32,753 nt of DNA, taken from assembly GCA_030040965.1 (NCBI GenBank), contig JASHOT010000079.1, forward strand, positions 1 through 32,753, read 5' to 3'. The position numbers and the translations under genes are program-made. The notes below the pieces were generated by a model that did no database searches, was not told the DNA's origin, and saw only the letters and a program-made list of their open reading frames with translations. Source of the stretch: Candidatus Sulfotelmatobacter sp. Lineage in GTDB: Bacteria > Acidobacteriota > Terriglobia > Terriglobales > Acidobacteriaceae. Below are positions 11,370 through 32,651 of this stretch, piece after piece; positions within the stretch are counted from its first letter, which is position 1, and every line of letters begins with the position of its first letter.

Positions 11370-12333
<964 letters not shown>

Positions 12334-12334
<1 letters not shown>

Positions 12335-14187
12335 TGCCAGTCATCGACATTCACAACCACTTCTTTCCGCGGTCGTGGCCGGACTTGGCCGCGCGCTTTG
12401 GCACTCCCAACTGGCCTTGGATTAAACATACGGAACCGGGCAAGGCGGAGATCATGGTTGGCGACAAGTTTTTTCGCCACATTTATTCCGCGTGTTGGGA
12501 TCCCGAGGTGCGATTGCGCGAGATGGACCGCGACGGCGTGGATCTGCAAATCCTTTCGGCCACGCCGGTGCTGTTTGCCTATGAACGCCCGGTCGAGCAC
12601 GCGGTCGATTGCGCCATGTTATTCAACGACGCGGCACTGGAGCTTTGCGCAAAGGGAAAAGGCAGATTGAAGTCGTTCTGCCAGGTGCCGCTACAAGACC
12701 CGGACGCGGCCTGCCAAGAGCTGAGCCGCGCGATGCGCGCCGGGCATCTGGGAGTGCAAATTGGTAATCATGTTGGCGATAAGAATCTGGACGACCCTGG
12801 CATCGTCACCTTTCTTCATCACTGCGCTGCTGAGGGTGCGGCCGTTCTGGTGCATCCGTGGGACATGTTCGCGCCGCAAAGGATGCCGAAGTACATGATG
12901 CCGTGGACGGTGGGCATGCCTGCGGAGACGCAACTCGGCATCGTCGCCATGATCCTTGGAGGCGCGTTCGACAAGCTTCCAGCAACGTTGCGAATCTGCT
13001 TTGCGCATGGCGGTGGGAGTTTCGCGTTTCTTCTCGGGCGATTGCAGAATGCGTGGGAACAGCATCCGGTGGCGCACGGCGTCTGTGAGTTGGCGCCGAA
13101 GCAATATCTGAAGCGCTTCTACGTGGATTCTGCAGTGTTCAATCAGCGAGCGCTGCAGTTTTTGGTTGACACCATGGGCGCGGAGCGCGTGATGCTGGGA
13201 TCTGATTATCCCTTTCCGCTCGGCGAACATCCCGTCGGAGAACTGATTCGATCGAGCCACTTTCCGTCGAAAATGAAATCGAAGTTGTTGGGGCAAAATG
13301 CGGAAGAATTCCTGGGGCTGCCGGTTGAGATGGAGCGTGCTGTTTCGCGTGCAGCGGAATCCCCCGTCGTTCCCGAGCGGGAACAACTGACTTATAGTTC
13401 GTATCTGCAAGTGCCGGAATTGCTCGAGTTGCAGCACCCGCAATCTTCACCGCAGCACCATGACGAGATGTTGTTCATCATCGTGCATCAGACCTACGAA
13501 CTCTGGTTCAAAGAGTTGTTGCATGATCTCGATGCGGTAGTTGCCAATTTGAAAGCAGCAGCAAGAAATCCCGAATCACGCGACGAAGTGTATGAAGCGG
13601 CGCGACTGCTGCGGCGTTGCACCGAGATCACGCGAGTGCTGGTGGAGCAATTCACAATCCTGGAAACGATGCTGCCGACACATTTTCTGGCGTTTCGCGG
13701 AAAACTCGAGCCGGCCAGCGGATTTCAGTCGGAACAATTCCGCGAGCTTGAGTTTCTTTGCGGATTGAAAGACGAGAAGATGCTGAGCTATCACCGGCCT
13801 ACGCCGGAAGCTTACACGGAGTTAAAGAAACGACTGCTCGAACCCTCATTGCGCGACGTCTTCTTTGACGCGCTCCGCGCCATGGGAAAGCTGCAGCAGG
13901 ATGGGAATGCCAGTGCACACGAACAGTTCGAGGCACGGGCAAGGGCGGTGCTTTCACTCTACCGCGGCGAGCACAGTTATCGCGACTGGATCGATGTTTG
14001 CGAGCGCCTTACGGAGTTTGATGAACTGATCGTCAGCTGGCGGCTGCGCCATGTTCAGCTGGTGGAGCGTGTGATTGGCGCGCGCATGGGAACCGGAGGC
14101 AGCGCTGGTTCGTCATATCTAAAACTCACGCTCGATAAGAAATTTTTTCCGGAGCTCTGGGAAGCGCGCACACTGCTGACCGAATGA
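12334..14187 (+). CDS. Fusion: ACMS decarboxylase (ACMSD) + tryptophan 2,3-dioxygenase (TDO)
   Basis: One uninterrupted 617-codon frame. Residues 1-332 are a complete ACMS decarboxylase: Zn ligands in VIDIHNHFFP (His7, His9), VHPWDMF (His), CFAHGGGSFAF (His) and the GSDYPFPLGE Asp, ending NAEEFLGLP. After a short link of about 20 residues comes a complete TDO (about 350-617): LTYSSYLQVPELLELQHP, HDEMLFIIVHQTYELWFKELL (substrate-binding segment), FRGKLEPASGFQSEQFRELE, the heme-ligand region SWRLRHVQLVERVIGA and GTGGSAGSSYLKLTL. ACMSD removes CO2 from ACMS; TDO makes N-formylkynurenine from tryptophan, so the fusion joins the first and a late step. ATG 13330 (residue 333) has no clear Shine-Dalgarno, and no stop ends the ACMSD part, so a fused product is the simplest reading. 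Confidence 0.92.
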
Positions 14188-23111: not shown

Positions 23112-23843
23112 CTATTTCGCTGGAATGAGCGTCGCCAGCGCACTTTTCAATTCATCCGGCTTGAAACCGAATGGCCCGGGGCGGCTTTTGTAGACAATGT
23201 GGCCTGCAGCATCGATCAGAAAGAGCCGATCCGGCCATGCCGTGTAGGCAGCTTCGGTTGAGTTACCAAACTCGTCAAGCACCGCCGGAATTTCGATTCC
23301 CAGCTTTCGCACGCAGGTTCCTGCAATCGCGCCACGTTGTTCCTCATCGCGCGGGCTGGCGAATACCACATTGTCTTTGATATTGCTCTGCATCTGCCAG
23401 ACGTCGCTCGGATGCGCCTCAGAGATATAAACCACCAGAAATCCCACGCGATCGCTGTACTGATGGTAGAGCCGGTTGAGGGCGGGAACCTCCCGCCGGA
23501 AAGGCGGTCACGTGTAGCTGCCGAAAACGAGCACCACAGGCCGTCCCTGAGCTGCGAACGACGACAGCTGTACTTGCCCGCTCTTGTCGACTTTCGTCAA
23601 GGTGAAATCTGGAGCGGAGTCGCCCACGTGGAGAGTGCCGCTGCGCGCATGCAGCCACATGGTCTCAAAAGGAAGGACAAGAAAGGCGACGGGCGTGGGA
23701 ATCTTCGACATCACGCGGCCAAAATACTCAGGTGGTTGCCGCATCACCTCATAGATAGAGGCCGAAGCGAGAAGCCATGCTACGGCAATGACGCAGATCG
23801 CCCTGAGGGCAATCCTTTTCACAGACCGGGATAGAAGCTGCAC
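23112..23843 (-). CDS. Deiodinase-family thioredoxin-fold protein with in-frame TGA (predicted selenoprotein)
   Basis: The reverse-strand frame reads through one TGA at 23510-23508 and stays in register on both sides. One membrane helix comes first (RIALRAICVIAVAWLLASASIYEV), then VGDSAPDFTLTKVDKSGQVQLS, a redoxin start. The active site is FGSYT-[TGA]-PPFRREVPALN, followed by GFLVVYISEAHPSDVWQ and later AWPDRLFLIDAAGHIVYKSRPGPFGF. FGSxT-U/C-PPF and VYI-x-EAHxxDxW are the signature of iodothyronine deiodinases and their bacterial relatives. The TGA sits exactly where Cys or Sec is expected, and a SECIS-like hairpin follows. Sec would be residue 112 from GTG 23843, a weak start; GTG 23822 is the alternative. 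It has its own promoter. Substrate unknown; probably a membrane-anchored thiol/selenol redox enzyme. Confidence 0.85.
23481..23497 (-). promoter_or_regulatory. Bacterial SECIS-type hairpin
   Basis: On the reverse strand, 10 bases after the TGA, GGCGGGAGGTTCCCGCC forms a 6-7 bp stem with an AGGTT (GGT) loop. Its 17-base size, the GGU loop and the distance (17 bases from TGA to the loop G) closely match the SelB-binding hairpin of E. coli fdhF as I recall it. The hairpin lies inside the coding sequence, as in bacteria. Confidence 0.8.
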
Positions 23844-23874
23844 TGGATTCCGAGAACCCCAAAAGAGTGCACGG

Positions 23875-23902
23875 ATTATAAGTATTTGAAACGAGAAATC
23901 AA
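23875..23902 (-). promoter_or_regulatory. Sigma-70 type promoter of the deiodinase-like gene
   Basis: On the reverse strand TTGATT (23902-23897) and TATAAT (23880-23875) are 16 bases apart. Transcription would start near 23868, about 25 bases before the GTG at 23843. The site is in the gap after the DUF2207 stop (23926), so the selenoprotein candidate can be expressed separately. Confidence 0.65.
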
Positions 23903-23925
23903 TAGTAGAGAAATAGTATTGAAAC

Positions 23926-25677
23926 TCAAAACGCGCTTCCTCCGCCGCCGCCAAATCCGCCGCCGGAAAATCCGCCGCCACCCCCGCCGAATCCACCGCC
24001 GCTCCACCCCGATCCGCTCGCGCTCGCTCGCGGCGCGGAGACGAAGACCTGATGCATGTCGCCAGCCATGCTGGTCATCGAGTTGGAAAAGAAAATGGGA
24101 TTGAACATCATGCCGGGATAATAACCGCCCGGCGCCACGTACCAACTGGGCGGATCTTTCACAATTCCGGAAAATGCCTGGGCCCAGTGATGCTCAACCC
24201 CGAGCGCCATCGCGTACGCAAGGTATTTTTCAAAGGTGTCGGGAGGCATGGTCTTGAGACGGTCGGCATCTACGCGATTCATGAATTCCTGGAATCCGAG
24301 CACAGCGATGCGAACGCGTCCGCCTTTTACGGTTTTCGCCGTCATCACACGCGCAAACAGCCACCAGATGACCGCCGACGCAAGTACACATACTACCATC
24401 AATGGAATGGAATTGAAGAAATTAGCCCAGTTCATGTATTGAGCGAAGGCAAAAACAATCAGGATCACGATGGCCGCGGCGATGCTGTAACCGTTAGCGG
24501 ATTCAGGATCGAGCAGATAGAGACCCTTATTTCTTAGCGACGACATAATGTCTTCGCGAATGATCGGAACAGCGGTATAGAAGCGATTCTTCAGGCGGGA
24601 GAGCCGCGTTTCGCGTCCGCCGTCAAAAATATTCTCGAGCATCACGCGCTCATGCGCCGCGAGGCTCTTGTCGGTCCACTCCGATTCCGGCTTGAGCGAG
24701 TGAAAAATGTAATCCTTGTGGGTGAAGACCAGCGCTTTCTCGGCGACTTCTTCGATCTTGATGTATCCACGTACGGCAAGATCGATAATTGTCGATGTGA
24801 TGTCACGGGGATGGATCGAGTCTTCAAGCAGCGTTCCTGCCTCGGCTGGAGATATTCCCGGAGGCGGTTCGTACATGGGCGCGACCGACATGCCGGGGTC
24901 GGGATCACGGCCCTTGACCCCCCACAGGCTGAACATCACTGCCGCCGTAACCAGCGGCAGAATCAGAATGGGATTTCCGCCGAGCACCCAGAAGAAGCGG
25001 CGTAGCGCGCTCGGTTCGGTGAGAATATCTTTCGGAATATAAATGTCGATGGTCAGGCCGCCGCGCATGGGCAACGGACTGCTGGTCTCGAATTGCGCTT
25101 CGGAGCCGTTAACCGTGGCGGTTGCGTTGCGCTCGCTCGATCCATAAACGCCGGTGAAGGCCTGGGCGCGCAGCGATCCGGCGGCGTAATCAGGGAAGCG
25201 GACGGTCGCAGCCGCATGGTCGACCGGCACCGGCCAGTCGTTGCCGATCACATTCCAATAGAACTCGTCGTAATCTTTGAAGAAGCGCGTTCCGTTGCGG
25301 ACTTCGTAGGTGATCTCGACTACGCGCGTCGTATCAATCGCACTGGGAATGTAAATCTTCAGATCGCGAAAACCGTTCGAAGTGGAAGACTCATAGCGCA
25401 GATTTTGTCCGTTGCCGTCGGTCAGGCTGATGACCTTGACGTACAGTTCGTAATTCGTTCCGTTGGGAAGGGGGTATTCGACTGGGATAGTGCGGTGAAT
25501 ACCGTTAAACTGGCCGGTGAACGCGAGGGTGATACGCTCGGTGATTACCGCGCTTCCATCGCGTGAAACCGCAATCGAGTCCTGAAAATCGGAAACCCGC
25601 CACGATCGGGCCGCCGCAACGCCCGCGCAAGAACTGAGAAGCAGCGCGAGAAGGACGGTCTTCGTCAGGTTTTTCAA
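23926..25677 (-). CDS. DUF2207 membrane protein
   Basis: 583 residues from a TTG at 25677 with GAGGA upstream on the reverse strand. A signal peptide MKNLTKTVLLALLLSSCAGVAAA is followed by an extracytoplasmic N-domain with the DUF2207 marks SWRVSDFQDSIAVSRDGSAVITERITLAF and HRTIPVEYPLP. Membrane helices are at about 228-250 (NPILILPLVTAAVMFSLWG) and in the 398-443 pair (SIAAAIVILIVFAFAQYM, LMVVCVLASAVIWWLFARV). The cytoplasmic part holds ISPAEAGTLLEDSIHPRDITSTIIDLAVRGYIKIEE, a winged-helix-like region seen in the family. It ends in a Gly-rich GGGFGGGGGGFSGGGF tail, also a family habit. Function unknown; LemA lies just upstream, the usual partner. Confidence 0.92.
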   Translation of the reverse strand: MKNLTKTVLLALLLSSCAGVAAARSWRVSDFQDSIAVSRDGSAVITERITLAFTGQFNGIHRTIPVEYPLPNGTNYELYVKVISLTDGNGQNLRYESSTSNGFRDLKIYIPSAIDTTRVVEITYEVRNGTRFFKDYDEFYWNVIGNDWPVPVDHAAATVRFPDYAAGSLRAQAFTGVYGSSERNATATVNGSEAQFETSSPLPMRGGLTIDIYIPKDILTEPSALRRFFWVLGGNPILILPLVTAAVMFSLWGVKGRDPDPGMSVAPMYEPPPGISPAEAGTLLEDSIHPRDITSTIIDLAVRGYIKIEEVAEKALVFTHKDYIFHSLKPESEWTDKSLAAHERVMLENIFDGGRETRLSRLKNRFYTAVPIIREDIMSSLRNKGLYLLDPESANGYSIAAAIVILIVFAFAQYMNWANFFNSIPLMVVCVLASAVIWWLFARVMTAKTVKGGRVRIAVLGFQEFMNRVDADRLKTMPPDTFEKYLAYAMALGVEHHWAQAFSGIVKDPPSWYVAPGGYYPGMMFNPIFFSNSMTSMAGDMHQVFVSAPRASASGSGWSGGGFGGGGGGFSGGGFGGGGGSAF

Positions 25678-32562: not shown

Positions 32563-32639
32563 TGGTAGGCCCGGCAGGAATCGAACCTGCAACCCTCGGA
32601 TTAGAAATCCGATGCTCTATCCGTTTGAGCTACGGGCCC
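32563..32639 (-). tRNA. tRNA-Arg (anticodon UCU), CCA encoded
   Basis: Reverse-strand cloverleaf. Acceptor GGGCCCG pairs with CGGGCCT (one G-U), D-arm GCTC/GAGC, anticodon arm TCGGA-TTTCTAA-TCCGA with anticodon TCT, T-arm GCAGG-TTCGATT-CCTGC, discriminator A and encoded CCA. It reads AGA codons. All arms are intact. Confidence 0.96.
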
Positions 32640-32651
32640 TCAGGTGCAAAT

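Follow-up and report, generated by a model that had tools for sequence, protein, structure and literature searches.

Deiodinase-like selenoproteins have been known in bacteria since 2005, when they were found in Sargasso Sea reads (Zhang et al. 2005, PMC1088965), and they were described again from the GOS data in 2008 (PMC2398784). This lowers the novelty of the gene presented here but not the correctness of its assignment. The proteins of both studies share with ours the PF00837 domain, an active-site selenocysteine (Sec), a SECIS element just past the UGA, the existence of Cys homologs, and a proposed redox role, but they were marine metagenome reads, whereas the lineage described here is found in Acidobacteriota genomes. 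Reviews from 2022 and 2026 list the motif of bacterial deiodinase-like selenoproteins as UxxC. The Acidobacteriota lineage instead has UPPF, and UxxC was seen in just one of the distant Sec homologs that we inspected (L194, UPYC). With the vertebrate deiodinases DIO1-3 (mouse DIO3, 4tr3; DIO2, 9h48), the protein has in common the TUPPF motif, an E-A-H-P-S-D-x-W segment, a single N-terminal membrane helix, and the thioredoxin fold. For Occallatibacter riparius, a tool published in 2025 gave a count of three known selenoproteins, which are not named in the passage concerned (PMC12013277). In the open-licence papers covered by our search, we found no discussion of the Acidobacteriota form or of the cassette of selenium genes that accompanies it, and this widespread lineage with its cassette is poorly described.

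The window, meaning the whole stretch of 32,753 nucleotides that was analyzed, carries the deiodinase-like gene at 23112-23843 on the reverse strand (243 codons plus stop). The gene starts with GTG at 23843 and ends with TAG at 23112-23114, and its sole internal in-frame stop is a TGA at 23508-23510 (-), which becomes residue 112 of 243 when it is read as an amino acid. The original prediction of one reverse-strand frame, FGSYT-TGA-PPFRREVPALN, running without a frameshift on both sides of the TGA was borne out, and the motifs that it had named (VYISEAHPSDVW, AWPDRLFLI, and GPFGF) are all present in the translation. Standard annotation had been expected to split the gene into two short ones, and ORF calling with Table 11 does exactly this, giving ORFs of 162 amino acids (23508-23996) and 111 amino acids (23112-23447). 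GTG 23843 is a plausible start and is preferred over the possible alternative GTG 23822 because the start position was compared among relatives, many of which likewise show a start codon 111 codons ahead of the TGA. The source assembly (5.87 Mb, 93.6% complete) is fragmented, and the closest relatives that bear a name belong to Candidatus Sulfotelmatobacter and other Acidobacteriota, with soil and peat as the source of many. Near this genus, the gene has LemA, DUF2207, VWA protein, and subtilase genes as neighbors; this neighborhood is kept among close relatives only and gave no clue to function.

We predict with near certainty that the active-site TGA is a Sec codon. In a survey of 200 relatives, the close homologs cross exactly one TGA in nearly all cases, and relatives whose frame likewise continues through this TGA are mostly 51 to 74% identical. 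TGA occupies this codon in 51/51 close homologs used for codon counts and in all 79 readable matches among 80 matches in named genomes; TUPPFR could be read in 78 of these 79, and in the last one, a base call following the first Pro is ambiguous. Eight other homologs have TGC or TGT instead, and the in-frame UGA is therefore aligned with Sec or Cys of homologs, as had been claimed for this position. One of the Cys forms, in the near-complete genome G099, nests inside a Sec clade with support of 99/96, and in this genome, SelB matches do not rise above the EF-Tu-like background. Since the C-terminal part matches PF00837 and relatives read through the same TGA, the open frame is not a chance one.

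The selenium machinery is present in the same genome, where a search for selA, selB, selC, and selD had been proposed as a check and returned all four. selA is on contig C12 (527 bits joined), selB on C343 (363 bits, above the cut-off), and the tRNA-Sec gene on C263 (69 bits; ARAGORN anticodon tca). The selD gene (G000:C275:10764-11780, L018) has an in-frame TGA of its own (KAAG-U-ASK), and SelD is therefore probably itself a selenoprotein. A formate-dehydrogenase-like gene (G000:C77:18832-19566, L195) also has an in-frame TGA (RI-U-HSSTVPG), behind which lies a hairpin whose loop is GGUCU, and is likely to encode a third selenoprotein of this genome. Within the window, the tRNA-Sec model gave a weak match at 32565-32641 (-) of 36 bits, under the cut-off, which is probably an ordinary tRNA.

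Among genomes at least 90% complete, the TGA form of the gene was found in 0/22 genomes without SelB, while SelB was present in 48/48 genomes with the TGA form. SelB was scored as present at a best E-value of <1e-70, a threshold of our own that was chosen because values near 1e-31 to 1e-58 look EF-Tu-type. Depending on the total, zero TGA forms in 22 SelB-less genomes would be expected by chance with a probability of about 2e-5 to 9e-5, although the tallies were counted by hand and the relatedness of the genomes makes these P values optimistic. One SelB-less near-complete relative, G099, has the Cys form.

The original prediction had not looked for a SECIS element. A hairpin at 23481-23497 (-), GGCGGGA-GGU-UCCCGCC, lies 11 to 27 nucleotides past the TGA, with nucleotides 11-17 pairing with 21-27 in 7 bp around a GGU apical loop at 23488-23490. 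Published rules for bacterial SECIS elements (PMC13188914) call for an apical loop of 3 to 9 nucleotides with a G in its first two positions, a stem of 4 to 16 bp, a distance of 16 to 37 nucleotides from the UGA, and a minimum free energy of ≤-7.5. With its 3-nucleotide GGU loop, 7 bp, 17-nucleotide spacing, and -16.5 kcal/mol, the hairpin conforms to these rules and is a predicted bacterial SECIS element. In an alignment of 24 sequences, the stem has 91.1% standard pairs and 15 double-changed cells compared to a mean of 3.3 after shuffling. Its covariation of 0.360 compares to 0.133 for shuffled alignments (0/500) and to at most 0.211 when the stem was slid along the alignment. Compensatory changes turn G-C into C-G at two pairs, and one pair each shows U-A or A-U in place of G-C. 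The bias in synonymous codons past the TGA is also extreme in the 51 close homologs, with CGG in 44/51 and 50/51 cases in the hairpin stretch (compared to 0.21 in the rest of these genes), GAG in 51/51 (0.49), GTT in 46/46 (0.17), and CCC or CCT in 50/50 (0.51); since the homologs are related, the P values for this bias overstate independence. On both strands of the window, this is the sole perfect 7-bp hairpin with a 3-nucleotide GGN loop, and it is absent from three Cys homologs (L053-L055) that were folded alongside the Sec forms. An Rfam search of the region gave nothing beyond sub-threshold chance matches. Folding of the single sequence gave a z-score of -1.2, which we judged insufficient, and the claim of a SECIS element therefore rests on covariation and codon bias. 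The putative element lies within the coding frame, in contrast to the SECIS of vertebrate DIO1-3, which is in the 3' UTR.

A reading of the TGA as a normal stop, as the scar of a pseudogene, or as an error of sequencing, with a decaying downstream half, could draw on the fragmented assembly, on the split by standard ORF calling, and on a score below the cut-off of the NCBI deiodinase model. It is nevertheless very improbable and already contradicted by the computations: independent assemblies have TGA at this very codon, the downstream frames are intact, the hairpin covaries, and among near-complete genomes the TGA form occurs only together with SelB. The possibility that close relatives would show TGA as nothing but a random stop had been raised, and the homologs keep it at exactly this codon; a misread TGC or TGT is likewise excluded because all independent assemblies have TGA. 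For a general recoding of TGA, such as to Trp or Gly, in this organism, we found no supporting evidence, and the adjoining DUF2207 gene terminates with TGA at 23926, homologs have Cys at the site, and selA, selB, selC, and selD are present together with the SECIS hairpin, which leaves this explanation a vanishingly small probability. The initial suggestion of a likely bacterial selenoprotein is thus supported by the conserved TGA, the four sel genes, and the covarying SECIS.

The assignment to the deiodinase family, also part of that suggestion, was upheld. The C-terminal domain matches T4_deiodinase (PF00837) with an E-value of 3.5e-34 and 118.6 bits compared to a gathering cut-off of 27, and among solved structures, those closest in sequence are mouse DIO3 (6.8e-24) and DIO2 (1.8e-23). 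The AlphaFold model (pLDDT 83.5, pTM 0.81) has a long N-terminal helix, and the top Foldseek matches of this predicted structure are DIO2 and DIO3, with ResA/TlpA-type and peroxiredoxin (Prx) folds coming next. The NCBIfam model NF038285 (deiodinase_rel) matches over its C-terminal half (model positions 177-343) at 4.5e-57; the score of 194.1 bits is below the curated cut-off of 250, and nothing in our protein corresponds to the N-terminal half of the model. In a tree that included mouse DIO2 and DIO3, both fell among the bacterial Sec forms, and we make no claim on the origin of deiodinases because this placement is weakly supported (84/58) and the branches are long; the root was placed at the midpoint. 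Deiodinase-family Cys domains with a CPNF motif were seen in L053, L055, and L187, and those of L053 and L055 each close a long frame of repeat-like (TPR-looking) character; in L056 and L057, a deiodinase-family domain with TUGPF stands behind a different upstream domain and the hairpin position is shifted.

The active-site network of DIO3, for which residue roles have been described (PMC7506546), is matched residue by residue: Ser109, Thr111, Sec112, Tyr139, Glu142, His144, Trp149, and Arg170 correspond to DIO3 Ser167, Thr169, Sec170, Tyr197, Glu200, His202, Trp207, and Arg225. The residues of the thyroxine pocket are changed, with DIO3 His219, Tyr257, Phe258, and Arg275 aligning with Pro, Trp, Pro, and Pro; one place before the Pro aligned to Arg275 is a basic residue, as has been stated for DIO1. 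The proximal Cys168 of DIO3 is a Tyr in our protein, and a different Cys on a later helix is conserved compared to DIO1-3. No Cys is found three residues past the Sec, where UxxC would have its resolving Cys, since our protein and its close relatives have UPPF. The conserved residue is Cys177 (23313-23315, -), equivalent to C170 of P0002, which is invariant in the 37-sequence alignment A5 and lies on the predicted helix 160-174 of P0002. We hypothesize a resolving role for this Cys. A counterpart is missing in one divergent clade, and Cys177 is therefore not essential family-wide. In DIO1, the selenenylsulfide is formed by the proximal Cys and not by the distal one (PMC9141512), and re-reduction in our protein must therefore differ from that in DIO1.

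With moderate confidence, we propose that the gene encodes a membrane-anchored deiodinase-family selenoprotein with SECIS-directed Sec112 that acts as a periplasmic, Prx-like selenol redox enzyme. Of this, computation shows that the frame is open, that the TGA is conserved, that the SECIS covaries, that the genome has the Sec machinery, and that the fold is that of deiodinases. SelB with Sec-tRNA-Sec would bind the hairpin just past the UGA and the ribosome would insert Sec at residue 112. An approximate N-terminal transmembrane anchor at residues 11 to 31 (about 23751-23813, -) is predicted from hydropathy (maximum of 2.08 at residues 12 to 30) and from the long helix of the model. Together with the basic residues that precede it, this helix would place the catalytic domain in the periplasm, a topology that we infer from hydropathy only. 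The selenolate may then attack a small substrate that is oxidized or halogenated, with a peroxide-type oxidant as the most likely candidate, and the conserved Thr111, Glu142, and His144 (DIO3 Thr169, Glu200, and His202) would assist in this. The oxidized selenium would probably be resolved by Cys177 and re-reduced by a thioredoxin-like partner or, in some relatives, by an AhpD-like one. For the redox role, we count the ResA/TlpA and Prx folds that follow the deiodinases in Foldseek and the AhpD-like CxxU selenoprotein gene that adjoins the deiodinase-like gene in some relatives.

The main rival for the function is a reductive dehalogenase whose selenolate strips iodine, bromine, or chlorine from halogenated aromatics of soil organic matter by the chemistry of the animal deiodinases. 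The matched DIO3 network, the TUPPF motif identical to that of mouse DIO2 and DIO3, and the fact that deiodinases are the best solved relatives all speak for it. We nevertheless consider it rather unlikely, as the pocket residues corresponding to Tyr257, Phe258, His219, and Arg275 differ from DIO3, no dehalogenation genes were seen in the neighborhood, and Zhang et al. expected another, redox function in bacteria (PMC1088965). Less likely still is a periplasmic TlpA/ResA-type thiol-disulfide oxidoreductase in which Sec replaces the first Cys. The membrane anchor would suit such an enzyme, and ResA, DsbE, and TlpA-type domains rank behind the deiodinases in the Foldseek and NCBIfam matches, but the deiodinase profile scores 194 bits compared to 40 bits for ResA, and the U-P-P-F motif, found here and in all close relatives, is neither CxxC nor UxxC, so that the second residue of the TlpA/ResA type is missing.

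In some Terriglobia, the gene closes a larger selenium cassette. The order selD-selA-selB followed by the deiodinase-like gene is kept in seven loci (L073, L074, L139, L143, L148, L156, and L160), a divergent tRNA-Sec gene lies upstream of selD in 5/7 of them, and three further loci have a partial cassette including selB. The selB genes of L073 and L074 were confirmed by TIGR00475, while the remaining selB genes, as well as selA and selD, were recognized from sequence within the clusters. Between selB and the deiodinase-like gene, all five loci read (L148, L160, L139, L156, and L073) have a gene for an AhpD-like selenoprotein (RCPY-U-LDSH), whose CxxU protein matches TIGR01926 and Pfam CMD. 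The arrangement, in which an AhpD-like CPYU gene precedes the deiodinase-like gene in some relatives, resembles AhpC/AhpD and the AhpD-like selenoproteins (TIGR01926, CxxU), and a linked pair of Prx-like and AhpD-like selenoproteins was seen in the GOS reads (PMC2398784); in our case, the Prx-like partner is a deiodinase-family protein. The deiodinase-like gene also occurs in 9/12 genomes with the TGA form of the AhpD-like gene (P of about 5e-4 to 2e-3, with relatedness ignored). It is tempting, if doubtful, to see in the two proteins a selenoprotein relay whose genes stand together with those of the entire Sec machinery (selC divergent, selD-selA-selB-ahpD-like-dio), a selenol pathway of the periplasm that would counter oxidants or organohalogens and might be a main reason why these soil bacteria keep selenocysteine. 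The AhpD-like selenoprotein gene is absent from the Sulfotelmatobacter genome studied here, which rules it out as a partner in this organism, and the AhpD-like protein is therefore not a required partner of the deiodinase-like protein.

Formerly represented by a few marine reads, the deiodinase-like selenoproteins now include a gene that is conserved across Acidobacteriota and occurs in the named sequenced strains Acidicapsa dinghuensis 4GSKX and Occallatibacter savannae AB23, and the role of a bacterial deiodinase homolog thereby becomes testable. The results also supply bacterial relatives for the question of animal deiodinase origin and demonstrate that standard ORF calling splits genes of this type. 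Elsewhere in the window, an ORF at 12295-14187 (+) encodes an Amidohydro_2 (ACMSD-like) domain fused to tryptophan 2,3-dioxygenase. With a 3-HAO match at 11795-12334 and other members recognized by eye, the run of genes around it resembles the kynurenine pathway.
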